A DNA stretch of 43,113 nt from Planctomycetaceae bacterium (GTDB taxonomy: Bacteria > Planctomycetota > Phycisphaerae > Phycisphaerales > Zrk34), in the NCBI GenBank assembly GCA_002685935.1, contig NYZD01000187.1, positions 1-43,113 on the forward strand, read 5' to 3'. Made by a program: the position numbers and the translations under genes. The notes below the pieces were generated by a model, which saw only the letters and a program-made list of their open reading frames with translations, made no database searches and was not told the DNA's origin. Below are positions 2,883-22,557 of the stretch, piece after piece. The stretch's first letter is position 1; each line of letters opens with the position of its first letter.

Positions 2883-3682
2883 ACGAAACCGCGGCCCCAC
2901 CCCATCCCGCCGACAGCGACATGCGCCGCGACACCGTCGTCCGCGCCCTGGATGTCAGCCGCGTCTACGAGTTGGGCGGTGAAACCACCCACGCCCTCCG
3001 CAGCGTCGACCTCGATATCTTTCGCGGCGAATACATGGCCATCATGGGCCCCTCCGGATCAGGCAAGTCCACCCTCTTCAACATGATTGGCGGTCTCGAC
3101 AAGCCCACCGCTGGCATGGTCTTCATCGACGAAGTCGATATCGCCGCCCTCGATAGCTTCGAACTTGCCTGGCTCCGCTGCCGGAAAATCGGCTATATCT
3201 TCCAGTCCTTCAACCTCCTGCCTATGCTGACCGCCATGGAAAACGTGGTCATGCCCATGACCTTCGCCAACACCGACCCCGATGAAGCACGTGATCGTGG
3301 CTACGACCTCCTCCAGAAAGTCGGCATCGGCGATCGATGGTCGCATCGGCCCGGCCGAATGTCAGGCGGACAGCAACAACGCGTCGCCATCGCCCGCGCC
3401 CTCGCCAACGAGCCCGCCATCGTCCTCGCCGACGAACCCACCGCAAACCTTGACCTTAAAACCGGCGCCGACATCATCACCATGCTCAAACAGCTCTGCG
3501 CCGAGATCGGCGTCACCGTCATCAGCGCCACACACGATCACAAAATGCTCGACATCTGCGATCGCGTCGTCTGGATTCGTGACGGCGCCATCGAACGCAT
3601 CGAACTCCGCGAAAATCTCGATATCCACGTCGGCGTCTTCGAAGAAGATCGCACCAATGAAGATGAAGGAGCCGGCACCTGA
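2879..3682 (+). CDS. Second ABC transporter ATP-binding protein, LolD/MacB type
   Basis: A 267-residue paralogue of the ATPase at 508-1386. Walker A GPSGSGKST is at residues 57-65, FQSFNL near 109, signature MSGGQQQ at 161-167 (Met replaces the usual Leu), Walker B IVLADEP near 181-187 and the switch His at 219. The C-terminal tail repeats the pattern IELRxxLxIxVG seen in the first ATPase. The start ATG overlaps the preceding stop (ATGA), and its own TGA shares one base with the next ATG. Two ATPases beside two permeases suggest either two homodimeric transporters or one mixed complex; the sequence does not decide this. Confidence 0.93.
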   Translation: MNETAAPPHPADSDMRRDTVVRALDVSRVYELGGETTHALRSVDLDIFRGEYMAIMGPSGSGKSTLFNMIGGLDKPTAGMVFIDEVDIAALDSFELAWLRCRKIGYIFQSFNLLPMLTAMENVVMPMTFANTDPDEARDRGYDLLQKVGIGDRWSHRPGRMSGGQQQRVAIARALANEPAIVLADEPTANLDLKTGADIITMLKQLCAEIGVTVISATHDHKMLDICDRVVWIRDGAIERIELRENLDIHVGVFEEDRTNEDEGAGT

Positions 3683-6600: not shown

Positions 6601-9600
6601 CATCAACATCTCCAACCTGCCCTCACCCTCACTGGTGTCCGCGATCAGCGCGCCAATACCTTCACCCCCCACGATGATCTGACCAACCTCAACATCGACA
6701 ACTACGGCCGGATCATGGCCTTCACGTCGTCCTACCTGCCCCTCCTGGTGAACTCCAAAGACCTCGGCACCACGCTGGAGACCGCCGGTACCGCCGCGCC
6801 CTACACCCTCGAACTCACCGTCCGCCTACTCGATAAATACGCCGTCACCATCCCCAAGATCCGTGTTTCGGGTGCCGTCGTCGTCGCCCCCATCGGCGCC
6901 CCGCCCCTGGGAACCATCAATCATTGGATGCTCGGACAGGTGCGCCCCTGGCACGTCTCCCTCACCGATGAAACCGGACGGACCTGGCTGCGCGGCGCCA
7001 CCACCGCCGGCGCTTCACTCCAGGTGTTCAGCTATTCAGATGACTTCCGATCCGTCGAAACCGCCCTCGATCTTGGGACCGAAGGCGAATCCCGATTCCC
7101 CTCAACCGTCGCTGGCAGCACCACCGCGTTCTTCAAAACCGCGTCCGTCCTCGCCTTCCCCTGCAAGAAGATCGATCTCATCGGACTCACCAGCGCCCTC
7201 ACCCTCGACGCCGAAAAGAGCGTCACCATCCTCGACGCCCGCCAGGACAGCACCCCGCGCTTCTATGGCATCTCCGGCATGCTTGCCACCGCCTCGACAA
7301 AGGTCGTCCCCAACTCACTCGACGGCACCGCCTCGATTTTCATGGACCCCGGCACGCCCTTCAAGCTTCGAATCGGACCCATCACCGCCGCCCAGACGCC
7401 CGCCATCAACGCCACCGACGACGACCCCGAAGGCGTCGGGTTCCCCGCCGACATCGGCATCGTCCGAGACATCACCCTCACCAGCGCTCAGGACATGTAC
7501 CGGCTCACCGACTCTCGCCTCCGTCTGCTCAAGTCCAAAGGCGTCGAGAACAAAACCGCCCAGAATTTCCACGAGGAAGCCAGGAAAGCCATCGATCAGC
7601 TCGAAGATCCCGCAATTGCCAATCGCAACGATCTGCGCCTCAACCTCGGCGAAAAAGCCCGTGGCCTCGAATATCAGGCCTACACCCGAGGCCTCGGCAC
7701 CATCAACGATCTCATCCGCGCCGTCATCATCTTCCTCGCCCTGGTCATTCCCTTCTGCTTCTTCACCATGAAGCTCATCACCCCGTTCACTGAGGTCTCC
7801 CGCCAGCTCTTCGGGTTTGCGCTGATCTTCCTGGTCATGGCCATCACCCTGCAGATCGTGCATCCGGCGTTCAAAATCGCGCAGACCCCCTACATCGTCA
7901 TCCTTGCCTTCGTCATCCTCGGCCTGGCCGGCTACGTCGCGATGGTCGTCATCGGGCGATTTAACGCCTCCATGAATCAAGCCGTCGAAGAATCCCAGAT
8001 GGCCGAATCAGGCGATGCCCCCCAGGGTCGCCTCGCCGGCGCCGCGTTCATGGTCGGCGTCAATAACATGAAACGACGACGCATCCGCACCACCCTCACC
8101 TGCGTCACCATCGTCCTCGTCACCTTCACCATGCTCTCCGTGATCTCCGTCGGTCAGAACACCGAACCCATCAAACTCAGACGCACCAGCGAAGCGCCCT
8201 ACAACGGCTTCATCTTCACCATGCCCGGCCTCGCGCCCATCCCCGTCAATCGCGTTGAACGGCTTCGCGCTCACTTCGCCGAGCAAACCACCGTCGCCCG
8301 CGCCTGGGGACAGCGTCAGGGCGCCAAGAAAGATTACCTCCCCTACGAGATCAGGCCCCACAACCCGATCCCCGGCGCCGACGCCCGCAAACTCGACGCT
8401 ACCGTCCTCGTCGGTCTCGAACAGGCCGAGGACGGATTTCTCCGATCCCTCAGCGGCGTCGACGGCATCCTCACCGCCGGACGATGGTTCTCCAGCAACG
8501 ACGCCCCCGAACTCATCCTCAGTGCCAAAGCCGCCTCCGTGATAGGCCTCGATGACTCCAATTTCAATGACGCTCGTTTTGATCTGCACGGCCGAGCCGT
8601 CGAACTCATCGGCCTGATCGATGACGAGCGCATGACCAAGCTCGAAGACCTCGGCGAAGTCCAGATCCTGCCCATGCTCGTCGATCCCAAACGCGAAGGC
8701 GGCGCCGACGCAGCCACCGATGCGACCGCCAGCGATATCGCCCTCGAAGGACGCAGCCTGTCCGACATCGTCGGCGCCAATCCCGCCGAACCCAAGAACG
8801 TCGCCTTCCTGCCCATCGACTTCGTTATGGACACCGGTGAAGCGTCCTACCGCACCCTCTCGGTCAAATACGAAACACCCGTCGATGCCGGCCTCACCGC
8901 CTCCGAAGCCGCCAAACTTGCCGCCGAGCAGGCCTGGGCCGACACCTCCGACATGATTCAGTTCCAGACCATCCGCCTCATCGTTAGCCTCCAGCAGCAG
9001 GTCATCTACGGCGAGCAGCAAACCAAAATGTCCGCCGGACAATACGCCGTCGCCTCCAGCAACTCCGCCCAGGTCGGCGGCGTCGTCAAGGTCGCCATCC
9101 CCGTCATCCTCGCCGCCACCATCATCCTCAACACCATGCTCGGCTCCGTCATGGAACGCCGCCGCGAGATCAGCATCTACAACGCCATCGGACTCAACCC
9201 CTCACACGTCATGGTCTTCTTCCTCGCCGAGTCCCTTGTGTTTGGCGTCGTCGGCGCCGTCGCCGGCTACCTCATCGGACAGATCCTCAGTGTCGTCATC
9301 GCCGCCCTCTGGCCCAATACCCTCAACCTCAATTACTCCTCCCTCAGTGTCATGGTCGTCATCTTCCTGTCGATCGGCACCGTCCTCGCCAGCACCATCT
9401 ACCCCGCACTCATGGCCGCCCGTGCCGCCGTGCCCAGCGGACAGCGCCGATGGTCACTGCCCCAACCCGATGGCGACGAAATCACCATCAAGTTCCCGTT
9501 TAGCTACGATGCCGAACGCGTCCTTGGCATCTGCGCTTACCTGCGCGACTACATGCGGCAGAATTCCGATGCGTCAACCGGCAAATTCCTCGCGCGACTC

Positions 9601-9975
9601 GGACCCGTCGGTAAAGTCCCCGTCCCCGACGCGCCCCCCAACGCCGACCCCGCCGCAAGCGAAGCCTATGTCATGCTCTTCGATATCGCCCCAGCCCCAT
9701 TCGACCTCGGCGTCAACCAGTCGATGGAGGTCTACGCCTATTACGATGCCCACATCCGCGCCCACATGCTCTCCGTCCATCTGAAACGCATCAGCGGCGA
9801 ACGCAGCAACTGGGTCACCGTCAATCAACCCTTCCTCGAATCCCTGCGCAAACGCCTGCTCAACTGGCGCTCCCAAAGAACGGACACTCAGCGCACCTTC
9901 TTCGAGATCGGTGAACAACTTTTCCGAAACGCACGCGTGTTTCACGCAGAACCTGAGCCCCAGACGAGATCGTAG
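3682..9975 (+). CDS. Giant FtsX-like permease with coiled coil, PA-like and degenerate M28 peptidase-like domains
   Basis: A 2097-residue membrane protein, several times the usual size of an FtsX permease. In order: signal-like segment (1-25); membrane hairpin (about 144-192); coiled coil (about 195-415); PA-like domain (about 471-570, beginning GPIVYVGK); M28 peptidase-like fold (about 580-1015) split by a helical insertion (about 685-860); beta-rich region (about 1040-1330); three membrane segments (about 1345-1430); FtsX core with first segment near 1470-1490, an external domain, then segments near 1804-1822, 1840-1878 and 1888-1916; and a C-terminal cytoplasmic domain of about 180 residues. 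The M28 metal sites look lost: GANSATN at 632-638 replaces the usual GADDNASG type, and FTPHDD at 994-999 replaces HTPHDT. GEE at 672-674 is kept. Translation is coupled to the ATPase upstream. Confidence 0.85.
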   Translation: MRLAFLFNMILIGAILGALPTPAGGQPTDAPTLSPEQRQARDTLLDPTADDLTRLEALLTFAPSREVGQPGNAALEALFAQRLAQAAETHNQSRDPTQWQQAQVLLARADAADRRIIELIDATQVQSAATTLQSPWYIRYPLEDAGVLISALVVVAILLCLTWYYQRRPALVIATVVVVGAAIALFVVSVTWNTPIEDINRAGRLQQDLIDAQAAKDNFAARITTLTEQRGQATKQLAEPADDTPSPEILQQRIDTIDRDLVEANEGLAERREFITNTQLHIAEWETQLQADLAAITPDIEALDQDTARLTEQLQPFEDQLSVRKGELAELRAAEETDDQRISDLEARILEVDEQAEPHRQALEAHEDQARPLRRQHRFLNATLAALTGGEGIQTVEKKQRDLAAARRQALVADLRAASAARGMWLSGEIQHAAAAFVPGAGRLTTQNKVDVPLFQLAPNLVEPGNLPETGFTGPIVYVGKATPADLAGRNLEGAAVLVDADCDRRWLSPVQLGAQVVIVREPTHRPMEYIQAALKRTTSPVSIPRFYLRHADLLAAFGPDWATALSQAPQITVQQTPGRWVDHNVRTSWLFIPGSTPSTPDATVGKDPARQLVHLQTYLDAASIVPDLSPGANSATNLVLMLRLLEQFESAPPIRPVLISIVNDHANALSGEEMFAHVAFTDVKSVLAELENIDLDLAAWAYIHDLYKHPPTRKLIEDIRFREEMVGGKNLKAKAAIADDYLTHMRNITRERLNGIEAQLRELPEGENPDPLEAQKKQTLKEADDLVTLLNLFKKIGAPQQFDELTAAHHAQLDQTFANIAEEAGRERDVLDRTRRQQRRNLQLRRRLLVLNPELIDQADRGQLTEISDDDVVATRLTPLTAIAMLSLDLTVGTDQVGFFHTGNQYALAGTLTEVVANRGRVKRLAVETLSVAHDWATSRDQPSLLVDTIRGTNWPWGAYMGGGFAIAANVTHQHLQPALTLTGVRDQRANTFTPHDDLTNLNIDNYGRIMAFTSSYLPLLVNSKDLGTTLETAGTAAPYTLELTVRLLDKYAVTIPKIRVSGAVVVAPIGAPPLGTINHWMLGQVRPWHVSLTDETGRTWLRGATTAGASLQVFSYSDDFRSVETALDLGTEGESRFPSTVAGSTTAFFKTASVLAFPCKKIDLIGLTSALTLDAEKSVTILDARQDSTPRFYGISGMLATASTKVVPNSLDGTASIFMDPGTPFKLRIGPITAAQTPAINATDDDPEGVGFPADIGIVRDITLTSAQDMYRLTDSRLRLLKSKGVENKTAQNFHEEARKAIDQLEDPAIANRNDLRLNLGEKARGLEYQAYTRGLGTINDLIRAVIIFLALVIPFCFFTMKLITPFTEVSRQLFGFALIFLVMAITLQIVHPAFKIAQTPYIVILAFVILGLAGYVAMVVIGRFNASMNQAVEESQMAESGDAPQGRLAGAAFMVGVNNMKRRRIRTTLTCVTIVLVTFTMLSVISVGQNTEPIKLRRTSEAPYNGFIFTMPGLAPIPVNRVERLRAHFAEQTTVARAWGQRQGAKKDYLPYEIRPHNPIPGADARKLDATVLVGLEQAEDGFLRSLSGVDGILTAGRWFSSNDAPELILSAKAASVIGLDDSNFNDARFDLHGRAVELIGLIDDERMTKLEDLGEVQILPMLVDPKREGGADAATDATASDIALEGRSLSDIVGANPAEPKNVAFLPIDFVMDTGEASYRTLSVKYETPVDAGLTASEAAKLAAEQAWADTSDMIQFQTIRLIVSLQQQVIYGEQQTKMSAGQYAVASSNSAQVGGVVKVAIPVILAATIILNTMLGSVMERRREISIYNAIGLNPSHVMVFFLAESLVFGVVGAVAGYLIGQILSVVIAALWPNTLNLNYSSLSVMVVIFLSIGTVLASTIYPALMAARAAVPSGQRRWSLPQPDGDEITIKFPFSYDAERVLGICAYLRDYMRQNSDASTGKFLARLGPVGKVPVPDAPPNADPAASEAYVMLFDIAPAPFDLGVNQSMEVYAYYDAHIRAHMLSVHLKRISGERSNWVTVNQPFLESLRKRLLNWRSQRTDTQRTFFEIGEQLFRNARVFHAEPEPQTRS

Positions 9976-9978
9976 CCC

Positions 9979-12015
9979 ATGGCCCGAATGGACCGGGAAA
10001 TCGAGCAGTATCGCAACTTGATGGAAGTCCCCGAGCACTTCGAGGAGGGCTTCGGTCTCAAGGCCGTCATCGGCGCGCTATTCCTCGGCTTCCTCATGGT
10101 CCCCGGCTCCATCTACATGAGCCTCTTCATCGGCGCCGGACTCGGACCTGCCGCCCGATGGGTCACCGTCATCCTCTTCGCCGAAGTTGCCAAGCGATCC
10201 ATGAAATCGCTTAAGCAACAGGAAATCTTCATCCTCTTCTACATGACCGGCATTGCCCTCGGCGGCGGCATGCAGGGCGGCGTCATGAGCGGACTGCTGT
10301 GGAATCAATACTACGTGCAGTCCGCCGCCGCCGTTGGCATGGGCGTCTCGCCCGAAATCCCCTGGTGGTTCGCCCCGCAACCCGAGGTCCTCGCAGAGAT
10401 CGGCTCACGCACCTTCTTCCACATGGCCTGGCTGGGACCCGTCCTGTTCCTCGTCGGCATGATGATCATCGAACGCATCGATTACTTCGGCCTGGGCTAC
10501 GCCCTTTACCGCATTACCTCTCACATCGAAAAACTCCCCTTCCCCATGGCTCCCGTCGGCGCCATGGGCGTCACCGCACTCGCCGAATCACACGACCCCT
10601 CCGAACGATGGCGATGGCGATGTTTCTCGTTGGGAGGTGTGCTCGGGCTTATGTTTGGTTTCATCTACGTCGGCGTCCCCGCCCTGTCTCAGACGCTGTT
10701 CGGACAAACCATACAGATTATCCCCATCCCCTGGCTCGACCTTACCTCGTCGATCTCAAAAGACACCTTCATGCCCGCCGTCCCGTTCAACATCGTCTTG
10801 GACATCACCTTCATCATCTCCGGCATGGTCCTGCCCTTCTGGGCCGTCGTCGGCGGATTCGTCGGCCTGCTGTTTACTTGGATCCTCAACCCGCTGTTAT
10901 TCAGCAACGGTGTGCTCACCAGTTGGACCGAGGGCATGGGCGTCGTCGACACCATGTTCTCAAACCAGATCGACTTCTATCTCTCGTTCGGCATCGGCCT
11001 CGCCGTCGCCATCTTTCTGGTCAGCCTGGCGCCCATCATCCGATCGCTTATCCGCATGGCGTTATCGCGCACCCCCGATGACCTGTCACTCGATCGACCC
11101 GAAAAACGCGGATTCATCAAGGAGCTGTTCCATCGTAATCGCGAACGCGGCGACATCTCCATCTTCATCGCCTTGGTCATCTACTGCTTCACCACCGCCC
11201 TCTATATCTCCATCTGCCTCATCCTCATGCCCGGCAATCCCGAGACCGGTGAGCCCCGCTTCCCCTGGGCCTTCTTCCTGATCATCTCGCTCATCTATCG
11301 GCCCCTCATCGGTTACGTCAACGCCAAACTCGAAGGGATCGTCGGCCAAAACGTACAGATCCCCATGTTCCAGCAGGTCGCCTACATCCTCTCCGGCTAT
11401 CAAGGCGCCAAGATCTGGTTCGCCCCCGTCCCCTTGATCGACCACTCCATCGCCGTCCGCGGCTTCCGCGAAATGGAACTCGTCGGTGCCCGCCTCACCG
11501 GCATCATCAAAACCGAACTCCTCACCATTCCCATCCTCCTGATCTGTTCCTTCCTCTTCGCCGAGGTCATCTTCCGACTCGGCAAAATCCCCGGTGAAGC
11601 CTACCCCTACACCCTCGAAGTCTGGCGCCTCAACGCCCTGGGCAGCGCGCTCACCCACACCGCGACCATGGAAGGCTCAAGCCCCTTCATGGAGGCCCTC
11701 AAGCCCGGCGCCATCGGTGGCGGCCTCGCCGGTGGTCTCGTCGCGTTTGTCCTCCTCAGCTTCCTCCACCTGCCCACGTTCCTCATCTACGGTGCCGTGC
11801 GCGGCATGAACCAGACCGTCCCCGGCGGCATCTTCTTTGAATTGCTCGGCGCACTGATCGGCCGCTTCTATCTCGAAAGGAAATTCGGACATCAGGCCTA
11901 CAAGAAATATGTCATGGTGCTCGCCGCCGGTTGGGCCGCGGGCATGGGACTGATCGCGATGGCTTCCGTGGCGATCGCGTTGATCGCCAAGAGCACCACC
12001 ACACTCGGCTATTAG
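9979..12015 (+). CDS. OPT-like multipass membrane transporter
   Basis: A 678-residue protein with roughly fifteen hydrophobic segments and short loops. It has glycine-rich membrane stretches such as GIALGGGMQGGVMSG and the pair PFPMAPVGAMG, which recall oligopeptide transporter (OPT) superfamily proteins. It would move a solute, possibly peptides or metal chelates, across the inner membrane; the substrate cannot be read from the sequence. It begins three bases after the giant permease ends, so it is almost certainly in the same transcript. A second large membrane protein of similar size and possibly related fold follows. The start ATG at 9979 has no clear ribosome binding site, in keeping with coupling to upstream translation. 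OPT assignment is by pattern recognition only. Confidence 0.65.
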   Translation: MARMDREIEQYRNLMEVPEHFEEGFGLKAVIGALFLGFLMVPGSIYMSLFIGAGLGPAARWVTVILFAEVAKRSMKSLKQQEIFILFYMTGIALGGGMQGGVMSGLLWNQYYVQSAAAVGMGVSPEIPWWFAPQPEVLAEIGSRTFFHMAWLGPVLFLVGMMIIERIDYFGLGYALYRITSHIEKLPFPMAPVGAMGVTALAESHDPSERWRWRCFSLGGVLGLMFGFIYVGVPALSQTLFGQTIQIIPIPWLDLTSSISKDTFMPAVPFNIVLDITFIISGMVLPFWAVVGGFVGLLFTWILNPLLFSNGVLTSWTEGMGVVDTMFSNQIDFYLSFGIGLAVAIFLVSLAPIIRSLIRMALSRTPDDLSLDRPEKRGFIKELFHRNRERGDISIFIALVIYCFTTALYISICLILMPGNPETGEPRFPWAFFLIISLIYRPLIGYVNAKLEGIVGQNVQIPMFQQVAYILSGYQGAKIWFAPVPLIDHSIAVRGFREMELVGARLTGIIKTELLTIPILLICSFLFAEVIFRLGKIPGEAYPYTLEVWRLNALGSALTHTATMEGSSPFMEALKPGAIGGGLAGGLVAFVLLSFLHLPTFLIYGAVRGMNQTVPGGIFFELLGALIGRFYLERKFGHQAYKKYVMVLAAGWAAGMGLIAMASVAIALIAKSTTTLGY

Positions 12016-12070
12016 CGTCGACCGGCCCCGTCACCGGCCGCCGCAGCGCACTGACTGATCATTCGTTTCC

Positions 12071-14518
12071 ATGAGCCAAACGCCCTACCAACGCGTCGAT
12101 CCCAATCAGGCCGATCAATCGCGTCGGCCCGACGCCACCCCCGACGACCCCCACCTCCCCCGGGTGCCGAATCAGCACCTGCGCATTCGCTGGGCCATCC
12201 TCCCGCTTGGCATCATCCTCTGCATCGCCCAGGCCGTCTTCACCATCGTCGCCGAGAATCAACTCGCGGCGATCGTCACCTCCACGCTCATTCCCGTCAT
12301 CGCCTTTGCCCTGCTCTTCGCGTGCGTCCTGGTGATCAATCCCTTACTCCGACTGATCTTCCGTGGCGTCATACTTCGACCGTTCAGCCGCGCCGAACTC
12401 ATGACCCTCTTTGCCGTCCTGCTCGTCACCTGCGGCATCTCCACGTTCGGTCTCACTTCCCAGTTGATCCCCATCATCGGCGCGCCGTTCAATCCCCAGT
12501 GGAACACCGCTCAGCGCGGATGGAGCGAGGAACTGCTGCCTCACATCAATCCCCAGCTCTATCTGACCGTCAGTCCCGATGCGACCCTCGACGAGAAGAC
12601 CGATGCCGTCAATGCCCTCAAGTCGCTCTGGTCCGACGACGACGCCGGCGATCACGGTCCCGCCGTCACGCACCTCATCAACGTACTCACCGACGATAGC
12701 ACCTACGTCGTACCCGAAAAAATCGCCGCCCATCGCGCGCATCTCCGATCCGCTCTCACCGGCGCCGCCGACCGGCGCCTCCAGCAATTCGACGAAGCCG
12801 CCACGACGCTTGACACCGTCGTCGCCCACAGAATCAGCACCCAGAATATGACCGCCTTCCATGAAGGCGTCAGCAAAACATCCGACGGGCGCCCCATCAC
12901 CAAGCCCCCCGAGGGCGCGCCCTTCGCCGAGCGCTACGCCCATTGGAAAAAAGTGGCCGCCGCCATTCCTTGGGATGCCTGGGCAAAGCCCCTCGCCTAT
13001 TGGGCCATCTTCATCCTCGCCTCGTACGGGTTGTTCTATAGCCTCACCCATATCGTCATGGGCTACTGGTCCAGGCGCGAAAAACTCATCTTCCCCCTCG
13101 CCCAACTCCCTGAAGCCATCCTGCCCGACGCCGACGACGCCGGCAGTTGGGTGCCCCGCATCTTCAAGACCACCGGCTTCTGGGCCGGATTCGCCGCCAG
13201 CTTTTTCGTGCTCACCTGGAACGCCGCCGTCTCCTTCAAATGGCTCACCCTCGGCGCCTTCCCTCTCGGATTGCCCGGCAACACCGTCAACAAAATCGTC
13301 GCCAACACCGGCCTCGCCGGCCTCGGCGGCGGCCTGGAATACAACCTCGCGTTCCTCGTCATCTTCACCGCCGTCGGCGTCGCCTTCCTGCTCCCACTTG
13401 AAATCAGCTTCTCGACATGGTTCTACTGGCTGGCCGGTAAGTGCGTCGTCCTCGCCCTCGTCTGGATGGGCTACGGCACCAACATGGCCGACTTCCACAC
13501 CGACTGGCTCTGGATGAACAACCCCATGTCCGGCATGGGCGCCGGCGGAATCATCGTGTTTTCCGCGATCAGTCTCTATCGTTCGCTGCGCGAATACTTC
13601 CGCCTCGGCGCCGGACGCTCCGCCGCCCAGCGATGGCGCCTCGCCCTGCCCGTCATCGCCCTCGTCATCTGTTTGGGCGTGTTGATCGGATGGATCTGCT
13701 GGAACTGGCAGGCCACCGGCAACCCCCTCTCCCTCAGCCAGGTCCTTTGGGCATTCCTGTTTGTGCTCGTCACCACACTCCTGTCCCTCGGACTCATGCG
13801 CATCGTCGCCGAAGGCGGAATCTATTGGATTCAGGCCCACGCCAGCTTCTTCCATCTGTTCAAGGTCTTCGGCCTGGGCAAAGTCATGTCCACCGCCATG
13901 CTTGCGCCGCTGCTGCCCATCTATTCCGTCCTTTTCCTCGATATCAAAACATTCATGGCCCCGAATATGCTCAACGCCGAAAAAATGCGCGAGAACATCG
14001 GCGGCAGTCGCGCCAAGTTCCACATCAATATCGTCACCTGCCTCCTCGTCACCCTCGTTGTCGCCATCGGCTTCACCGTGTTCTTCGCCCACCTCCGCGG
14101 CGGACGCGACATGCAGGAATGGTTCTACAAGACCGGGCCCCTGACCACCATCGACACCGCCTACCGAGCCGTCACCGATACACCCGAAGTCGATGGCGTC
14201 ACCGCCGGCTGGTACGGCGTCGGCGCCGGATGGGTCGGACTCACCATCTTCCTTCGCCGCGCGCTGTTCTGGTTCCCCCATCCCATCGGTTTCCTCATGA
14301 TGATCAATCCGTTGATGACCTACTTGTGGTTCAGCTTCTTCATCGGATGGCTCTGTAAGAAACTCGTCGTCAAATACGGCGGCAAGGCCACCTTCGACAG
14401 GGTCCGCGTCATCTTCATCGGACTGATCCTCGGAGAATTGATCGGGGTGTTCGTCTGGCCCACCGTCGCCATGATCCTCGGCCAAACCATGAACGCCGTC
14501 ACGCTTAACCGATACTGA
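12071..14518 (+). CDS. DUF6785/DUF6784-type multipass membrane protein
   Basis: An 815-residue protein with about twelve to fourteen hydrophobic segments. After two N-terminal segments there is a stretch RPFSRAELMTLFAVLLV, then an external loop of about 150 polar residues (about 140-290), then RREKLIFPLAQLPEAIL, all as I recall from DUF6785 proteins of Planctomycetota. The C-terminal half, including RIVAEGGIYWIQ, fits DUF6784. No biochemical function is established for these families to my knowledge; a transport role is inferred from topology and from the OPT-like gene 55 bases upstream. No terminator is visible between the two genes. Confidence 0.7.
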   Translation: MSQTPYQRVDPNQADQSRRPDATPDDPHLPRVPNQHLRIRWAILPLGIILCIAQAVFTIVAENQLAAIVTSTLIPVIAFALLFACVLVINPLLRLIFRGVILRPFSRAELMTLFAVLLVTCGISTFGLTSQLIPIIGAPFNPQWNTAQRGWSEELLPHINPQLYLTVSPDATLDEKTDAVNALKSLWSDDDAGDHGPAVTHLINVLTDDSTYVVPEKIAAHRAHLRSALTGAADRRLQQFDEAATTLDTVVAHRISTQNMTAFHEGVSKTSDGRPITKPPEGAPFAERYAHWKKVAAAIPWDAWAKPLAYWAIFILASYGLFYSLTHIVMGYWSRREKLIFPLAQLPEAILPDADDAGSWVPRIFKTTGFWAGFAASFFVLTWNAAVSFKWLTLGAFPLGLPGNTVNKIVANTGLAGLGGGLEYNLAFLVIFTAVGVAFLLPLEISFSTWFYWLAGKCVVLALVWMGYGTNMADFHTDWLWMNNPMSGMGAGGIIVFSAISLYRSLREYFRLGAGRSAAQRWRLALPVIALVICLGVLIGWICWNWQATGNPLSLSQVLWAFLFVLVTTLLSLGLMRIVAEGGIYWIQAHASFFHLFKVFGLGKVMSTAMLAPLLPIYSVLFLDIKTFMAPNMLNAEKMRENIGGSRAKFHINIVTCLLVTLVVAIGFTVFFAHLRGGRDMQEWFYKTGPLTTIDTAYRAVTDTPEVDGVTAGWYGVGAGWVGLTIFLRRALFWFPHPIGFLMMINPLMTYLWFSFFIGWLCKKLVVKYGGKATFDRVRVIFIGLILGELIGVFVWPTVAMILGQTMNAVTLNRY

Positions 14519-14556
14519 TGATGCGCGTCCCTGCCCATCCCATACGCGCCCGCGCC

Positions 14557-14562
14557 TACAAT
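14557..14562 (+). promoter_or_regulatory. Candidate -10 element TACAAT
   Basis: TACAAT stands in a short AT-rich island (TACAATAATCA) within GC-rich sequence, 70 bases before the ATG at 14632. No good -35 hexamer is seen at 16-18 bases upstream. If real, it gives the unknown protein and PqqD-like gene their own promoter and argues against starts at 14518 or 14521. Confidence 0.35.
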
Positions 14563-14631
14563 AATCACCGAACCCGCACCGACCCCATCGGCGATCCGAG
14601 GATCCTCTCAGACCCCGCAACTCCTCCCACC

Positions 14632-15642
14632 ATGACCGACGCGTCAGACATCGCCCCCGCCCCCCACTCCGCACCGCCGACCACCCCCGTCGGCATGCGC
14701 CCGTTCGGGTGGGCCGGCTGGCTCATCCACCTGCCCCTCACCTACCGCCCGTTGAAGTTCGATGGCGCCGCAGCCCGCGGCAGCGCCGCGCTCGGCGATG
14801 ACCGCGCCTCCCGCTTCTACGTCGTCTGGGGCACCGTGCGAAAACGCAAGTTCGATCCCGCCGCCCTCGCCCTCAAACGCTTCGCCAAGGCCGTCGGCCG
14901 AACCCGCGCCCCCAACATTCAGGCCAACCTCGAATTGATCGATCATCCCAATTTCCAATACTTCGGACGCGTCGTTGATCGCGTCGTTCAATGTGATCGC
15001 TACTTCGCCTACTGCGCCAACACCCGCCGTGTTTTTGACATGGTCTATCACCACGACAACACCGACGCCGATCGCACTTTCAATCAATCCGCCATGCGAT
15101 CACTTCTCAGTCAGCCCGCCGACGCGCCCCACTACTGGTCATTCTTCACCAACAGCTTCGCCACGCCCCCGGGCTATGCGTATGCCAAGTCGGTGATCAA
15201 CATCGGCGACATGGCCGTCACCACCCATCTGCCCCGTCGGTTCAGACGCCGTCGCGAAATCACCGTCCGCCAGATCTATCCCGCCCGCCTCGCCCTCGCC
15301 CGGCAGCCGATCGAAGACTGGATCAAATCAATCACCGTCCACAAAAAACTCATCCACAAGCCCCGACACCAGCGCTGGTTCAAACGCGGCGGCCTGCGCA
15401 TGGACCCCGTGCAAACCCCCGTCGGCGCCGGATTCGTCATCGACACCCGCGTCCCCTGGCAACTGCAGATGTGGCGCGGTCGCAAGTTCCGACGCACGCG
15501 CACCTGGTTCGTCCACGATGAACTCCAGGATCGTCTCGCCGTCGTCAGCATCAGCGCCGCCAATGCCGAATTGCCCGATCTGATCGACACCATCTGGGCG
15601 AACTGGCAGTGGGCCGCCGACTCCGCCCCCAACGCCGACTGA
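14632..15642 (+). CDS. Unrecognised protein of 336 residues, partner of PqqD-like gene
   Basis: I do not recognise this family. The open frame extends back to 14518, but the first 38 residues are low-complexity and cover the candidate -10 element, so I place the start at ATG 14632. The protein is soluble-looking, rich in Arg, Trp, Tyr and Phe, with no signal peptide or membrane segment. Visible features are FGWAGWLIHLPLTYRPLKFDG near the N-terminus, a basic middle (HLPRRFRRRREITVRQIYPA) and a C-terminal part rich in aromatic residues. The PqqD-like gene starts four bases after its stop, so the two products probably work together. Short beta-strand-like segments in the C-terminal half suggest a compact globular domain. 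Confidence 0.75.
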   Translation: MTDASDIAPAPHSAPPTTPVGMRPFGWAGWLIHLPLTYRPLKFDGAAARGSAALGDDRASRFYVVWGTVRKRKFDPAALALKRFAKAVGRTRAPNIQANLELIDHPNFQYFGRVVDRVVQCDRYFAYCANTRRVFDMVYHHDNTDADRTFNQSAMRSLLSQPADAPHYWSFFTNSFATPPGYAYAKSVINIGDMAVTTHLPRRFRRRREITVRQIYPARLALARQPIEDWIKSITVHKKLIHKPRHQRWFKRGGLRMDPVQTPVGAGFVIDTRVPWQLQMWRGRKFRRTRTWFVHDELQDRLAVVSISAANAELPDLIDTIWANWQWAADSAPNAD

Positions 15643-15646
15643 TCCC

Positions 15647-16009
15647 ATGGCCAAACGACCCAAATTCACCCGCGAGCAATCACTCGACGCAAAACCCATT
15701 GGCATCGAGATCACCCGCCGCGAGCCCCTCCGCGACGGCGGACAACGACTCGTCATCACCGTCCCCTCACGCGGATGGACCAAACGCATCCTCCGCATGC
15801 CCGACAACACCATCCGCAAGTTCGATCTCGATCCCTTCGGCGTCGACCTCTTCGACCTCTGCGACGGCCAAAAGTCCGTCCGCCACATCATCAAACGCTT
15901 CGCTCGCGACCACGACCTCGATCCCATTGAAGCCGAACAGGCCGTCGCCACCTTCCTGCGCACCCTCATCCGCAAAGGCCTCGTCCATATGATGATGCCC
16001 AAACGGTGA
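15647..16009 (+). CDS. PqqD-like protein (RRE-type winged-helix domain)
   Basis: A 120-residue protein. The part from about residue 55 (RKFDLDPFGVDLFDLCDG, then VRHIIKRFARDH and VATFLRTLIRKGLV) follows the PqqD pattern: beta hairpin, LxxxGxxLWxLxDG-like turn, and helical segment ending in RGLI. In known systems such domains bind leader peptides of ribosomally made peptides or act as partners of radical SAM enzymes. No radical SAM enzyme, cyclodehydratase or short precursor gene is seen nearby, so its role is open. It is translated right after the unknown 336-residue protein. The next gene follows after 125 bases. Confidence 0.75.
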   Translation: MAKRPKFTREQSLDAKPIGIEITRREPLRDGGQRLVITVPSRGWTKRILRMPDNTIRKFDLDPFGVDLFDLCDGQKSVRHIIKRFARDHDLDPIEAEQAVATFLRTLIRKGLVHMMMPKR

Positions 16010-16040
16010 CCCGCCCCCCTAACTCCCCCGTCACATTACG

Positions 16041-16120
16041 TTGACAATCAACCCCCGCCCGGTGAGCATGAACACGCGATTCGCCCATCGGACCCCAAAC
16101 CCTTGTCTTTTGGATATATC
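16041..16120 (+). promoter_or_regulatory. Possible promoter elements before the MoxR operon
   Basis: A perfect TTGACA lies at 16041-16046, but no good -10 follows at 16-18 bases. Separately, GGATATATCC (16112-16121) is a ten-base palindrome that contains TATATC, a possible -10, only 14 bases before the ATG at 16135. These two do not form one promoter at normal spacing. Transcription may start in this 125-base gap, but the exact site is unclear. Confidence 0.25.
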
Positions 16121-16134
16121 CAGGGCCGCCGAGC

Positions 16135-18399
16135 ATGCCCAACCCACGCACCTTCCAGTTCCAGCGATTCGGTTCCTCCTACCATCTCGTCATCCAATCC
16201 GCCGACGACCTGCAAAGCGTCCTCGAACTCGACGACGCCCACTGGATCGCCACCAGCGCCCCGGTCGACGGCCTCCGCTGCGATCCGGTCTTCCTGTCCT
16301 ACATCGAAGAACGCATCGACGGCCGCATCATCTGCGATGAACTCCGCGATGCCATCCGCTGGGCCCTCGACATGTTCCGCGATCGCTCCGGACTCGAGCG
16401 CCACGACACCGTCGTCCAACTCGAAGCGATCAACCCCGACGCGCCCGACGGCCACCGCGCTCTCGAGGCCGCGCGAAAAATCCTCCTCCGCAACGGCACC
16501 GACGATCACGCCACCGTCTCACTCGCCCAGGTCCGCGCTATCAAACAGGAAGTCGAAGACCGACCCGTCAGCGAGGCCTGTGTCGTCCTGCCCGATGCCG
16601 CCGATGATCCCGACATCCGACAGTGCTTAACCGATATCGTCGCCACCCTTGGCGGGTCACCCCATCCCGCCGGAACCAACGGTGTTTCACTCGACAATCT
16701 CGATCAGTTTCTCACCCAGGCCCGCGCCTACCTCGATTGGCACGCCCGCGGTCAAATCCCAGATGGCGCCGCCAACACCGATGTCCAACCCCTCGGCGCA
16801 CAAACCGCCGCCGCCTACGCCGCGCTCCTCGCCGTCCGCGACAAGATCGATCAGTTCTTCGCCCACTGCCGCGCCGTCGCCCACGACCCCGCCCTCGCCG
16901 CCCGCTTCGCCCCAAAGCCTGACGAACTCAACGCGCTCGATCCCCGGGATCCCGCTTCCATCGATGCCGTACTCCGCAGCGCCCCCCTCGCCCCCGCCGT
17001 CGCCGAGCGCACCCTCGATCTCACCACCCACATCAATCCCGCCGACATCGACGCCCTCGCCGCCTTCAAGGATCAGGTCCTCCAACCCGCGCTCGAACAA
17101 TCACTCACCCACCTGACCGAAGCCCAATGGCTTCAGGTAAAACAATACTTCGCCGCGCACGATGCATGGGCCGCCGCCCCCGCCGGCGCCGCCGTCGCCC
17201 GGCTCGGCATCGAGAAACTCAATCAATACCTCGAACCCCGCTTCGCCGAAGCCGTCCGCCAACTCGAAACCGCTGGCCACGCCACCGCCTTCGACCTGGA
17301 AAACGTCCGCCTCCTCGAAAAACTCATCCTTTTCCAGGCCCATCTCATCCCCGTTGCCGCCAACTTTGTCAGCTTCCCCGAACTCTACGACACCTCCCGC
17401 CGCGCCATGTTCGAGATGGGCACATTGGTCATGGACGGCCGTCGCTTCAATCTCGCCGTCCGTGTCAGCAACCGCGCCGAACACGCCAAGATCGCCGCCG
17501 CCTCCAGCATGTACGTCATGTACCTTCAGGTCTCCCCCGCCGACGGCGCCGCCAAGTACGAGGTCGCCGTCCCCGTCACATCCGGCACCAAGGGCAACCT
17601 TGCCCCCGGCAAACGCGGCGTGTTTAACGATCTTAAAAGCCACCTCTGCGACGCGCGCGTCATTCAGATCATCGACAACCCCGTCTCCCTCGGCGAAGCC
17701 ATCATCGCCCCCTTCCAACGCATCGCCCGTGTCCTCACCGGCAAGATCGAGGCGATGACCACCTCCGCCGAGAAAAAACTCGACACCGCCACCTCTTCCG
17801 CGTTCGGACAGGTCGAGTCCGCCGTCGCCCAACCCGCAGCCACCACCCCGCCTCCCGCCCAGGCCCCGCCCCAGCAATCACGCGCCGCCATGACCGGTGG
17901 CCTGCTCATGGGCGGCGGCGTCGCCGTCGCCGCCCTCGGCTCCTCCGTCGCCTACATCACCAAAACCCTCTCCGGCCTCGATTGGAGGTGGATCATCGGC
18001 GGCATCGGTGCCGCCATCCTCGCCGTCATGGCGCCCGCCGCCATCGTCGCCATGGTCAAGCTCCGCAAACGCGATCTCGCCGCCATCCTCGAAGGCTCCG
18101 GCTGGGCCATCAATGCCCACATGCGCCTCACCCTGCCGCAGCGCCGCTTCTTCTCGAAAAATCCCAGATTCCCCAGCGGATCACGCGGACTCCAACGCTG
18201 GCGATTCTGGGTCGCCATCGCCATCGTCGTCGCCGTCATCGCCGGTGCCGTCGTCGGCACCATCAAACTGCGCCGCATGCAAGCCGAAAAAGCCGCGCAG
18301 ATAGAAGCCGACAATGCCGCCGACGAAGCCGCTGATGATGAAGCGGACAAGAAGGATGCCTCCCCGCCCCAGACCAACACGCCCCCATCCACTCAGTGA
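16135..18399 (+). CDS. Conserved membrane-anchored protein of unknown function preceding MoxR
   Basis: A 754-residue protein I recognise only as a conserved uncharacterised type. The first 570 or so residues are soluble and largely helical. A well-ordered core (about 415-540) includes FPELYDTSRRAMFEMG, VMDGRRFNLAVRV, YEVAVPVTSGTKGNL and IQIIDNPVSLGEAI. A Pro/Ala/Gln linker (about 560-580) leads to three membrane segments (about 583-610, 622-646, 680-704) and an acidic, low-complexity tail. No enzyme motif is visible. It overlaps the ATG-alternative start region of the MoxR gene and heads the operon, so it may be a client or partner of the MoxR-DUF58-transglutaminase module. Confidence 0.8.
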   Translation: MPNPRTFQFQRFGSSYHLVIQSADDLQSVLELDDAHWIATSAPVDGLRCDPVFLSYIEERIDGRIICDELRDAIRWALDMFRDRSGLERHDTVVQLEAINPDAPDGHRALEAARKILLRNGTDDHATVSLAQVRAIKQEVEDRPVSEACVVLPDAADDPDIRQCLTDIVATLGGSPHPAGTNGVSLDNLDQFLTQARAYLDWHARGQIPDGAANTDVQPLGAQTAAAYAALLAVRDKIDQFFAHCRAVAHDPALAARFAPKPDELNALDPRDPASIDAVLRSAPLAPAVAERTLDLTTHINPADIDALAAFKDQVLQPALEQSLTHLTEAQWLQVKQYFAAHDAWAAAPAGAAVARLGIEKLNQYLEPRFAEAVRQLETAGHATAFDLENVRLLEKLILFQAHLIPVAANFVSFPELYDTSRRAMFEMGTLVMDGRRFNLAVRVSNRAEHAKIAAASSMYVMYLQVSPADGAAKYEVAVPVTSGTKGNLAPGKRGVFNDLKSHLCDARVIQIIDNPVSLGEAIIAPFQRIARVLTGKIEAMTTSAEKKLDTATSSAFGQVESAVAQPAATTPPPAQAPPQQSRAAMTGGLLMGGGVAVAALGSSVAYITKTLSGLDWRWIIGGIGAAILAVMAPAAIVAMVKLRKRDLAAILEGSGWAINAHMRLTLPQRRFFSKNPRFPSGSRGLQRWRFWVAIAIVVAVIAGAVVGTIKLRRMQAEKAAQIEADNAADEAADDEADKKDASPPQTNTPPSTQ

Positions 18400-18413
18400 G
18401 GCCGCAAATTCGT

Positions 18414-19340
18414 ATGGACCCCACCCTCCAGCGCATTCGGGACAACATCCGCACCGTCATCCGAGGCAAAGACGATCGCGTCGACCTCCTCATCGCCGCC
18501 ATGCTCGCCGGCGGACACGTCCTCATCGAAGACCTTCCCGGCGTCGGCAAAACCACACTCGCCAAAGCCCTCGCCCTCAGCATCGACGGCAAGTTCAGAC
18601 GCATCCAGTTCACCCCCGACCTGCTGCCCACCGACGTGCTCGGCGGATCCATCTACAACCCCCAAACCGGCGCCTTCACCTTCCACCAGGGCCCCATCTT
18701 CGCCAACATCCTCCTTTCCGATGAGATCAACCGCGCCTCACCCCGCACTCAGTCCAGCCTCCTCGAAGCCATGGCCGAACGACAAGCCACCATCGAAGGC
18801 ACCAGTTACCCGCTCCCCGAGCTGTTCATGGTCATCGCCACCCAGAACCCCGTCGAGTTTCACGGCACCTATCCCCTGCCCGAGGCACAGCTCGATCGCT
18901 TTCTCATCCGCATGGACCTCGGCTACGCCACCCCCGCCGACGAACAATCCATCCTCTTCGAGCAGAACCTGACCCATCCCATCGACACGCTTCAGCCCGT
19001 CACCGATTGCGATCAGATCACCGCCCTGCAACACAAGGTCCGCCAGGTCCACGTCGCCGAGGAACTCGGCGCCTACATCGTCGATCTCGTCGTCGCCACC
19101 CGGGATCATGCCCGCATGGAAATCGGCGCCTCCCCCCGCGGCGCGCTCGGCCTGTTCCGCATGGCCCAGGCCGTCGCCCTCATCGACTCCCGGGACCACA
19201 TCATGCCCGAGGACATCCAGCAGATCGCCGTCCCCGTCCTCGCCCACCGTGTCATGCTCGAAACAAAAGCCCGGCACAGCGGACTCGACAAACCTACAAT
19301 GATCAAAGAGGTCATTCAGTCGGTGCGCGTGCCGCGGTGA
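18414..19340 (+). CDS. MoxR-family AAA+ ATPase
   Basis: A 308-residue MoxR ATPase. Walker A PGVGKTT is at residues 42-48, Walker B ILLSDEINR near 99-107, then the RASPRTQSSLLEAM sensor region, TQNPVEFHGTYPLPEAQLDRF and a C-terminal lid. MoxR proteins act as chaperone-like ATPases that mature or assemble partner complexes, often with DUF58 proteins as here. ATG 18414 is chosen because GAGG at 18398-18401 stands 12 bases before it; a GTG at 18396 overlapping the previous stop would add six residues. The stop overlaps the start of the DUF58 gene (GTGA), showing coupled translation. Confidence 0.95.
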   Translation: MDPTLQRIRDNIRTVIRGKDDRVDLLIAAMLAGGHVLIEDLPGVGKTTLAKALALSIDGKFRRIQFTPDLLPTDVLGGSIYNPQTGAFTFHQGPIFANILLSDEINRASPRTQSSLLEAMAERQATIEGTSYPLPELFMVIATQNPVEFHGTYPLPEAQLDRFLIRMDLGYATPADEQSILFEQNLTHPIDTLQPVTDCDQITALQHKVRQVHVAEELGAYIVDLVVATRDHARMEIGASPRGALGLFRMAQAVALIDSRDHIMPEDIQQIAVPVLAHRVMLETKARHSGLDKPTMIKEVIQSVRVPR

Positions 19341-20617
19341 CACGATTACAAAACATCCTGCGCGTGTTGAAGAAGATCAACACCCTCGGCGTCCCCGAGC
19401 CGCGCCGGATTGAAATCCGCATCTTCCCGTGGATCTACCGACAGTATCGCGAACGCCTCACCCACTCCGGTCGATATGTCCTCATCGGCGCCGTCGGCAG
19501 CATCATCGCCGGCAGCTTTCCTGAATACATGGTCGGGTCGTACCTCTTTTCATTCTTCGTCGCCCTCCTCGCCGTCGCCCTCGCCGTCAGCCTATTCATC
19601 CGACCCCGCGCCCGGCTCCAACGTGACCTGCCCCCGCGCTGTGTCGCCGGTGCCACCGTTCCCTACCGCATCCGCGCCACCAACACCACCAAGCGCGATG
19701 CCCACGACATCGGCGTCGCCGAATTGAGGCCGCCCCATGGCATCCAAGTCTCCAAACCCGCCCAATACGTCGGACACATCCCCGCCGGCCAGTCCCATAC
19801 CTTTGATTTTGAACTCACCGCCGCCGACCGCGGCAGCTACTCCCTGCCCGGCCCCGCCGTCACCTCCGCATTTCCCTTCGGCCTCACCCAGGCACGCCGC
19901 TTCTCACCTCACCACCAGGAACTCCACGTCTACCCCGCCTTCCACCCGCTAACTGAACTCAACATCCCCGCCGGACTCCGCTATCAGCCCGGCGGCCTCG
20001 CCCTCACCTCCCAGGTCGGTCAGTCCATGGAGTTCATCGGCACCCGCGAATACGAAACCGGCGACCGCCTCCGCGATCTCCACCCCCGATCCTGGGCCCG
20101 CGTCGGATACCCCGTCGTCCGCCAGTATCAGGAAGAATACCTCACCCGCATCGCCATGATCGTCGACACCTACGCCCCGCGCAAACGCGATCGCCCCGCC
20201 CTCGAAGCAACCCTCTCCACCGCCGCCGCCATTGCCGACTACCTCTCCCGGCAGGAATACATCGTCGACCTCTTCGCCGCCGGCCCCGAACTCTACGTCT
20301 TCCAGGCCGGCCGGTCCCTCGGATACCTCGACAACATCCTCGACATCCTCGCCTGCATCGACCCCTGCGATCACGATCCCCTCGACCGCATCGCCCCTCG
20401 CCTCTACGCCGAACTCCGGCAGACCTCCACCGTCATCTCCCTGTTCATGCGCTGGGACGATCCCCGACGCAATCTCGTCCGCGACATTCGAGAGCTCGGC
20501 GTCGCCACCCACACCATTGTCATCAACAACGATCACGACGACGCCCGCGCCGCCGCCGCCGATGACGCCCAACACCTCACCGTCGCCCAGGTTCAGCACG
20601 GCGTGGAGCAACTGTGA
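19337..20617 (+). CDS. DUF58 domain protein
   Basis: A 426-residue protein with two N-terminal membrane segments (about 48-90), a beta-rich region, and the DUF58 hallmark REYETGDRLRDLHPRSWAR at about 237-256. A von Willebrand-like fold follows (IAMIVDTYAP and on). DUF58 proteins are usual partners of MoxR ATPases at the membrane. The open frame continues back to 19007 inside the MoxR gene, but that part is the MoxR gene read in another frame. The GTG at 19337, which overlaps the MoxR stop, is the sensible start. Its own TGA shares a base with the next ATG. Confidence 0.93.
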   Translation: MTRLQNILRVLKKINTLGVPEPRRIEIRIFPWIYRQYRERLTHSGRYVLIGAVGSIIAGSFPEYMVGSYLFSFFVALLAVALAVSLFIRPRARLQRDLPPRCVAGATVPYRIRATNTTKRDAHDIGVAELRPPHGIQVSKPAQYVGHIPAGQSHTFDFELTAADRGSYSLPGPAVTSAFPFGLTQARRFSPHHQELHVYPAFHPLTELNIPAGLRYQPGGLALTSQVGQSMEFIGTREYETGDRLRDLHPRSWARVGYPVVRQYQEEYLTRIAMIVDTYAPRKRDRPALEATLSTAAAIADYLSRQEYIVDLFAAGPELYVFQAGRSLGYLDNILDILACIDPCDHDPLDRIAPRLYAELRQTSTVISLFMRWDDPRRNLVRDIRELGVATHTIVINNDHDDARAAAADDAQHLTVAQVQHGVEQL

Positions 20618-22557
20618 TGGGCGAACACCGCGCCACATTCCCCGTCGCCCTCGCCGCCGCCGTCGCCGCAATCTCGCTCGGCGTCGCCGCTGAATCATGG
20701 CTCTGCCCCGCCATCCTCATCGCCGTCCTCCTGCTCCATGCCGTCGGTGGCGTCATCCTCAAAACCAAGCCACGCTTCTTCATCGGCCTGCTCATCCTCA
20801 TTCCCTACGCCATCTGGTGGCGCTACAGCGCCGATCGGGGGCCCACCCTCGTTTACCCCACCCATCTGTTCCTCATGGGGTTCTGCCTTCTGTCCCTCGG
20901 CATCTATTACCTGCTTTGCTATCGAAACGGCGGCAGCGTTCACATGGCCCACGGTGCGATCATCTTTGCCTTCGCCCTGTCCGGCACCGCCAGCGAGAAC
21001 GTGATGTTCAACCGCCTGCTCGTCATCTTTGTCCTCATCACCCTCTGGCAACTGCGCCATGCCTTGTCACTGCCCGCGATGAAGTTCGGTCGAAGTTGGA
21101 TCACCCGCGCCACCATCCTTCTGATCGTCCTCGCCTGCACCCTCGCCACGCAGAACTATGTCGTCGCCAACTTCCCCACCGTCGGCCGATGGATCAACAA
21201 CCGGGTCCGAGGGTTCGCGCTCTCCGCCGCCCGCGGTTTCGACGACACCGCGCGCCTTGGATCGATCCGCGGCGTCTGGATGTCCGAATCCGGACAACAG
21301 GTCATGCTCCGCGTCTGGTCCGATCAGTTGCCCGGCTACCTCCGCGGCGCCCTCTTCGATGCCTACCTCCAGGGCACCTGGGCCGCCGCCGCAGACTCCC
21401 AAACCCTCGAACCCGCCGACACCCATCACGGCCGCAACGTCTTTTCATTCACCGCCCGACAGCCCGACCGGATCAACGGTCACGTCTACGCCGATTCATC
21501 GTTGCGCCATGTCTTCTTTCTGCCGCTGGGAACCCATCAGATCAGCTCGTTCGCCGACTCCGTGAACGTCGCCCGCGGCTGGACCGCCCGACCCAACTTC
21601 CCCGGCGCATCAGGTGGCTACGGATACTACCAGCCCGTCTCCCCCATGCGCGGACCCACCGATCTTGATCTCGCCGTTCCCCCTCTGCTCCAATCCAAAC
21701 TCCAATCCATCGCCGACCAAATCGTCGGCGACACCGCCGGCCCTGCCGCAATCATCAAACGCATCGAACAGCACTTCCACCAGAATTACGAATACGAATT
21801 CAACATGGAGCTGCGGACCAACAAAGACCCCGTCATCGAGTTCCTCGAAGACAAAGACGCCGGATACTGCGAATACTTCGCCTCCGCCGCCACCCTCCTG
21901 CTCCGCACCCAGGACATCCCCGCCCGTTACGTCACCGGCTTCGTCGCCCATGAGCCCAGCCTCGACAATAACTACTGGATCGCAAGAAACCGCGACGCTC
22001 ACGCCTGGGTCGAAGCCTACCTCCCCGACCAGGGCTGGGTCATCGTCGAACCCACCACCCCCGCCGCCCGGCCCCAATCCAACACCTCCTCCACCCGCGC
22101 CCAATTCGCCGACTGGTTCGCCGCGCAATGGCAACGCCTCCTTCAGTTCATCACCCGCGGTGGCCTCGGCGGGATGATCGCCGCGCTGTGGGACGGCCTC
22201 ATCGTCCTCATGACCCAGATCATCCCCCTTTGGGCTTGGGGCGTCCTCATCGCCGCCGCCGCCCTGTGGTCCACGCGCAGCCGCATCAGAAAATGGTGGG
22301 CCCGCAAACGTGCCGCCCCGCAACCCCCTCACATCCTGGCGCTGCAACGCAAACTCACACTCGCCCAAAACCTCTTGGATCCCCACGGCCTCACCCTCGC
22401 CCCCGGCGATACCGTCGCTGACTATCTCGACGCCGCCGCCGCTGCCGATATCCCAGAACCCGCCCGCATCGAAGCCGTCCAGCTCCTCACCGAGTATCAA
22501 CACGACCGATTCCATCCGCCCACCGACGATTCGCCCCCCGCACCAGATATTGGATAA
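20617..22557 (+). CDS. TgpA-like membrane transglutaminase-like cysteine protease
   Basis: A 646-residue protein with about six N-terminal membrane segments, an external transglutaminase-like domain, another membrane segment (about 530-550) and a C-terminal DUF4129-like tail. The catalytic Cys is C418 in DAGYCEYFA and the His is H462 in RDAHAWVE. The third position is E478 in WVIVEPTTP, where the family usually has Asp. Together with MoxR and DUF58 it forms a widespread membrane module whose substrates are largely unknown. ATG 20617 overlaps the DUF58 stop; a GTG one codon earlier is also possible. Confidence 0.93.
   Translation: MGEHRATFPVALAAAVAAISLGVAAESWLCPAILIAVLLLHAVGGVILKTKPRFFIGLLILIPYAIWWRYSADRGPTLVYPTHLFLMGFCLLSLGIYYLLCYRNGGSVHMAHGAIIFAFALSGTASENVMFNRLLVIFVLITLWQLRHALSLPAMKFGRSWITRATILLIVLACTLATQNYVVANFPTVGRWINNRVRGFALSAARGFDDTARLGSIRGVWMSESGQQVMLRVWSDQLPGYLRGALFDAYLQGTWAAAADSQTLEPADTHHGRNVFSFTARQPDRINGHVYADSSLRHVFFLPLGTHQISSFADSVNVARGWTARPNFPGASGGYGYYQPVSPMRGPTDLDLAVPPLLQSKLQSIADQIVGDTAGPAAIIKRIEQHFHQNYEYEFNMELRTNKDPVIEFLEDKDAGYCEYFASAATLLLRTQDIPARYVTGFVAHEPSLDNNYWIARNRDAHAWVEAYLPDQGWVIVEPTTPAARPQSNTSSTRAQFADWFAAQWQRLLQFITRGGLGGMIAALWDGLIVLMTQIIPLWAWGVLIAAAALWSTRSRIRKWWARKRAAPQPPHILALQRKLTLAQNLLDPHGLTLAPGDTVADYLDAAAAADIPEPARIEAVQLLTEYQHDRFHPPTDDSPPAPDIG

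Follow-up and report, generated by a model that had tools for sequence, protein, structure and literature searches.

The 336-residue protein studied here (X336) and the PqqD-like protein encoded just behind it very likely form a working unit, and this unit is likely tied to a machine made of ABC, FtsX and OPT-like proteins, as indicated by gene adjacency, gene fusion and co-occurrence in genomes. We propose, with about an even chance of being right (close to 0.5), that the pair could work in the cytoplasm as a recognition or chaperone adaptor for a planctomycete envelope transporter. PqqD-like proteins are usually taken as markers of modified-peptide pathways. Here a domain of this type is found tied to transporter genes and to a database-unmatched family in genomes across Planctomycetota.

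The window, meaning the whole stretch of DNA analyzed, comprises 43,113 nt of contig NYZD01000187.1 (assembly GCA_002685935.1). Eight genes on the same strand, with short gaps or overlaps between them, extend from 508 to 16009:

508-1386, plus strand: ABC ATPase 1, 292 aa (Pfam ABC_tran, 115.2 bits)
1383-2882, plus strand: FtsX1 permease, 499 aa (Pfam FtsX, 63.9 bits)
2879-3682, plus strand: ABC ATPase 2 of LolD/MacB type, 267 aa (Pfam ABC_tran, 121 bits; NCBIfam LolD, 219.2 bits)
3682-9975, plus strand: FtsX2, 2097 aa, with a putative decayed M28-peptidase-like part (Pfam FtsX, 51.3 bits)
9979-12015, plus strand: OPT678, a polytopic OPT-like protein of 678 aa (no Pfam match; homologues in the cassette)
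12071-14518, plus strand: DUF6785/DUF6784 membrane protein, 815 aa (Pfam DUF6785, 203.3 bits; DUF6784, 78.8 bits)
14632-15642, plus strand: X336, 336 aa, predicted tandem Mog1/PsbP fold (alternative start 14518, 374 aa)
15647-16009, plus strand: PqqD-like protein, 120 aa (Pfam PqqD, 36.7 bits; profile matches to PqqD-family chains of the PDB)

The sequence-only reading had singled out the last two genes as a stand-alone PqqD-like gene paired with an unknown one, an interpretation that is partly supported by what follows. Both open reading frames are indeed present, 4 bp apart, with GC contents by codon position of the coding type (0.62/0.51/0.80 for 14518-15642 and 0.64/0.41/0.78 for 15647-16009). 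The two-gene unit that had been suggested from the short gap is too small, as the pair closes the eight-gene run and the neighbourhoods of its relatives show a conserved ABC/FtsX/OPT-like gene set. The -10 element of its own that had been considered for the pair was not recovered either: no sigma-70-like site was found in 9500-16400 where shuffled sequences gave 1.6, a consensus scan of this kind being weak evidence in either direction. Upstream, the reading frame of X336 continues without a stop as far as an ATG at 14518, so that its true start is uncertain; since this ATG overlaps the stop codon of the preceding DUF6785 gene, translational coupling of X336 to that gene is possible. Behind the pair, 16135-22557 encodes a membrane protein of 754 aa, for which no family match was convincing, followed by MoxR, DUF58-like (a name given by eye) and transglutaminase proteins; none of these downstream genes gave a tblastn match in 15 stretches from the class. 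Further on, 25181-27361 encodes a protein matching heparinase II/III-type and alginate-lyase families.

The larger set to which the pair belongs comprises MacB/Lol-type ABC ATPases, two FtsX permeases and the OPT-like and DUF6785 membrane proteins. An ABC or FtsX profile match was present on the same strand of the surrounding sequence for 54 of the 63 X336 loci collected in this work, FtsX1 homologues lie 3' of the PqqD gene in most loci of the class, and OPT678 homologues occur in the cassette of relatives. ABC ATPase 2 is nearest to LolD and MacB and stays under the cut-offs of both, that of NCBIfam LolD being 307.75; FtsX1 likewise reached neither the MacB model (50.4 bits, cut-off 966) nor the LolCE model (40.7 bits, cut-off 362.45). 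Among three full FtsX2 proteins scanned, one (locus L030, 27.6 bits) passed the Peptidase_M28 cut-off. A metal-site motif of M28 peptidases was absent from all 30 FtsX2 homologues longer than 1400 aa, and the M28-like part is therefore probably a pseudo-peptidase. We take OPT678 to resemble OPT proteins; eight rows of the family (one of them a 33-residue fragment) gave no Pfam OPT match at E<=10. Its neighbour passed the cut-offs of both DUF6785 (25 bits) and DUF6784, for which no function was described in the literature searched. These two polytopic proteins, side by side in 9979-14518, may be distant paralogues, judging by eye.

The sequence-only reading had also presented the 336-residue protein as a possible new partner of RRE-type domains, to be refuted if its orthologues consistently lacked a PqqD-like neighbour. 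Such a lack was not observed. A search with the single X336 sequence was positive in 15 of 397 class genomes; with a 13-row profile, 27 of 392 genomes of the phylum were positive. The two sets share the window and genome G017, and together hold 43 X336 genes. A PqqD gene lies directly downstream of 36 of them, four others lie where their contig ends or nearly ends (L031, L073, L081 with 77 bp left, and L082), and three have no PqqD (L075 with 470 bp left, L085 and L088). Searching with the PqqD profile gave 52 positives among 394 class genomes at E<=1e-5, and 39 further places were analyzed, with X336 in 20 and without it in 19. In two of these 20, X336 and PqqD are fused in one reading frame (L146 in G155, L149 in G096). 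In all, the 63 X336 loci, 20 of which came from the PqqD-based search, comprise 54 with a separate PqqD gene, two fusions and seven without PqqD. The gap in the 54 loci has a median of 1 nt and ranges from -14 to 298, with starts chosen by script.

The 19 PqqD places without X336 are of several kinds. Eleven are weak matches (E 1e-8 to 9e-6) and are probably other PqqD-like proteins. Three strong matches (L127, L129, L131) lie in stretches devoid of cassette genes, one (L134) is at a contig end, and two (L135, L138) stand with FtsX1. In the last two (L153, L163), which are variant cassettes, PqqD lies between two ABC ATPases, FtsX1, OPT678 and FtsX2, and X336 was not detected. A second, sub-threshold PqqD match of the window's genome lies within a 743-aa open frame (L126, G000:C100:4674-4814). 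Whole-genome searches covered Planctomycetota. A scan of a contig collection recovered no relative with the window X336 alone, and six Phycisphaerae records (L089-L094) with a 7-row alignment; these were judged to be the same DNA as six class loci already counted, and are thus not independent. A search of plasmids gave no match.

Co-occurrence was analyzed in 248 class genomes with each profile (E<=1e-13 for the PqqD type, E<=1e-30 for OPT678). X336 was detected in 37 genomes, the PqqD type in 38 and OPT678 in 44. X336 was accompanied by the PqqD type in 36 of its 37 genomes, the exception (G057) ending inside X336, and by OPT678 in 36 as well (exception G213). Conversely, X336 was not detected in two PqqD genomes (G129, G182) and in 8 of the 44 OPT678 genomes. 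Fisher tests gave p <1e-33 in each comparison, the genomes being related to one another. Five cassette proteins also diverge in parallel, with correlations (r) of pairwise distances between 0.74 and 0.88 and none of 500 permutations reaching the observed value in any of ten comparisons. Inheritance as an operon could explain these correlations alone, as r does not separate inheritance from contact.

In some genomes the components are present together but at separate places. In G412 and G580, PqqD shares a locus with FtsX1, FtsX2, OPT678 and ABC genes, and X336 lies elsewhere; in G420 and G155, X336-PqqD lies apart from a full transporter set; in G087 and G186, X336 is on a different contig from PqqD-FtsX1. 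We count the continued co-presence in these six genomes in favor of the adaptor proposal. On the other hand, we count against it that X336 is separable from PqqD in four of them (G412, G580, G087, G186), together with the PqqD loci and the OPT678 genomes in which X336 is missing. In G512, a second X336 copy (L075) has no PqqD and an adjacent pair is found elsewhere (L068), and in G036 the pair is present and an OPT678 homologue lies far off, without FtsX neighbours. At L078 (8782-10522), the pair lies behind a gene that looks PTS IIA-like by eye, the transporter set being on another contig. One could also imagine that X336-PqqD helps to assemble or stabilize the membrane complex and recognizes no substrate. 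The genomic association would be the same as for an adaptor, and the fact that the two genes can sit apart from the transporter genes would suit such a role, but the retention of a peptide-gripping fold would then be left unexplained, and we consider this explanation rather unlikely.

What the PqqD-like protein could do was approached from its family. It passes the cut-off of Pfam PqqD (PF05402; 23.4 bits), and a profile of 11 members retrieved from the PDB the lasso-peptide PqqD-family chain 9x90 (E 1.1e-9), 5sxy, 3g2b and 5v1u. RRE domains are described as leader-peptide binders that recruit enzymes (PMC7470986). Such a role would make of the locus a RiPP-like pathway, in which the PqqD-like protein would be a true RRE on a precursor leader, X336 would take part in maturation and the ABC/FtsX proteins would export the product. 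Besides the lasso-peptide and PqqD chains nearest to the profile, this would be consistent with the use of MacB-type ABC exporters in some peptide pathways, DarD being among the NCBIfam matches of the ATPase, and with 13 radical SAM matches elsewhere in the genome. Against it, and in agreement with the sequence-only reading, which saw no peptide-modifying enzyme, no maturase of the two kinds looked for was found beside the pair: radical SAM matches were absent from the window contig, and YcaO matches from the genome, which is about 79% complete. A crude motif scan for radical SAM proteins among 743 predicted proteins of 66 loci gave three matches, of which one (L150) is plausible. As for the short precursor peptides whose presence near orthologues had been raised, nine gaps of seven loci, compared by eye in a limited check, differ in content and showed no common small reading frame. 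We regard a RiPP-like pathway as quite improbable.

The same source notes a likeness between RRE domains and helix-turn-helix domains, look-alikes of this kind being a known source of false positives (PMC7470986). This resemblance would allow a regulatory pair, in which the winged helix of the PqqD-like protein would bind DNA or a regulator and X336 would sense a ligand to control the operon. The structures retrieved are nevertheless PqqD-family chains and not DNA-binding proteins, and no DNA-binding Pfam family was found; we hold such a regulatory role to be a little more improbable still.

As for X336, the homology search that had been suggested recovered its relatives and no meaningful match in Pfam, NCBIfam or the PDB sequences. 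Matches to IL17R, DUF5655, DUF4034 and ribosomal L16 were at chance level and were discarded. Among 13 members, none matched the PsbP, Mog1 or DcrB families of Pfam at E<=0.5, and none matched DUF1795. AlphaFold models computed from 7 sequences each reached a middling pLDDT of 69 (pTM 0.69) for the window protein and a pLDDT of 85 (pTM 0.79) for the orthologue L089. In both models, two domains with a shared topology follow one another in the chain, and their solved fold relatives are PsbP, Mog1, DcrB, SciW/EagT6, Tsi3 and TplEi/Tli4. The best match was 2xb3 for the window model (Z 12.4, 137 aligned, rmsd 3.2) and 3hlz_A for the L089 model (Z 12.0, 128 aligned, rmsd 3.3). The latter also matched 1eq6 (Z 10.8) and, with its second half, 4n7s_B (Z 10.5), and Tsi3 matched the second half of X336 in the two models (Z 9.8 and 10.5). 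The SciW and EagT6 entries gave modest values (Z 6.7-9.2), partly in the range of a mere common arrangement. In these predicted models, each half of X336 thus adopts the Mog1/PsbP fold. For an internal repeat, the sequences gave a probability of 1% with 13 members, and E 1.4e-4 but a probability of 53% with 58 members, so that the proposed duplication rests mainly on the models. Since no membrane-type hydropathy segment was found in 16 X336 sequences or fragments, and since the homologue L023 begins directly at the domain, X336 is likely cytoplasmic.

Foldseek aligned TplEi with both X336 models over almost their whole length (E 3.1e-4 over 323 columns for the window protein, E 2.8e-4 over 354 columns for L089), and one would wonder whether X336 could be an immunity-type protein like TplEi/Tli4. 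With TM-scores of 0.27-0.31, transporter genes as neighbours and no membrane-spanning segment, this is hardly credible.

We therefore return to the adaptor proposal, which draws on the leader binding of RRE domains, on the gripping of helices by Eag chaperones and on a role proposed for PsbP/Mog1-like proteins. The cytoplasmic Eag chaperones, of the DUF1795/DcrB kind and of the same fold, are described in PMC7773334 as gripping transmembrane helices as claw-like dimers, and PMC3482391 proposes PsbP/Mog1-like proteins as adaptors in T6SS operons. The machine would consist of the MacB/Lol-type ABC ATPase, FtsX1, the giant FtsX2, the OPT-like permease and often the DUF6785 permease. X336 and the PqqD-like protein, which are one fused protein in two genomes, would act jointly in the cytoplasm as a physical complex. 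The PqqD-like domain would grip a peptide segment, either in the substrate or in a tail of the machine that lies in the cytoplasm. X336, with its duplicated Mog1/PsbP fold, would hold a second segment, perhaps a hydrophobic one, and the pair would pass its client to the ABC/FtsX-OPT complex. The adjacency, fusions, co-occurrence, parallel divergence and predicted fold are observed; the complex, the binding of a peptide, the adaptor role, its cargo and the direction of transport would follow from the model. The modest fit to Eag proteins and the pLDDT of the window model also count against it. A more daring version, which we advance tentatively and think unlikely as a whole, is that a PqqD/RRE domain has been recruited, away from any peptide maturation, to be the arm by which a transport machine recognizes its substrate, that X336 works like a built-in Eag chaperone dimer, the two loading a peptide or hydrophobic segment onto the ABC/FtsX-OPT complex, and that the M28-like part is a pseudo-peptidase receptor.

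If this more daring version is true, the pair would represent substrate-delivery adaptors of a new class. The tie to transporter genes by itself gives an RRE-type domain a role outside RiPP pathways that can be tested, and suggests a conserved planctomycete envelope transporter. Altogether, we class the locus as an FtsX-type ABC module with an unusual adaptor pair and not as a RiPP cluster, and genome miners should be cautioned that such loci should not be called peptide clusters.

A parallel can be drawn with several known systems, as the individual folds are known even though the X336 sequence family is without Pfam or NCBIfam match. The combination of X336, PqqD and transporter was not described in any paper among the matches listed in our literature search. 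The PqqD-like protein of the window shares the winged-helix PqqD domain with PqqD/RRE proteins (PF05402; lasso B1-type, TbiB1, PqqD), but its N-terminal part is longer, it has no maturase as a neighbour, and it is tied to a transporter and X336. Each half of X336 is predicted to be alike in fold to the Mog1/PsbP/DcrB proteins, including SciW and EagT6, and X336 lacks a membrane segment as the Eag proteins do; it differs by its two domains per chain, the absence of a Pfam match and its ABC/OPT-like neighbours. From the T6SS immunity proteins TplEi/Tli4, with which it aligns over its whole length, it is set apart by the low TM-score and the gene context. The protein encoded by 12071-14518 belongs with DUF6785/DUF6784. 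Finally, the cassette is related to the MacB/LolCDE-type transporters of the FtsX family through its ABC ATPase and FtsX permeases, and departs from them by scores that fall short of the equivalog cut-offs for LolD, MacB and LolCE, by a giant FtsX2 with an M28-like part and by its OPT-like partners.
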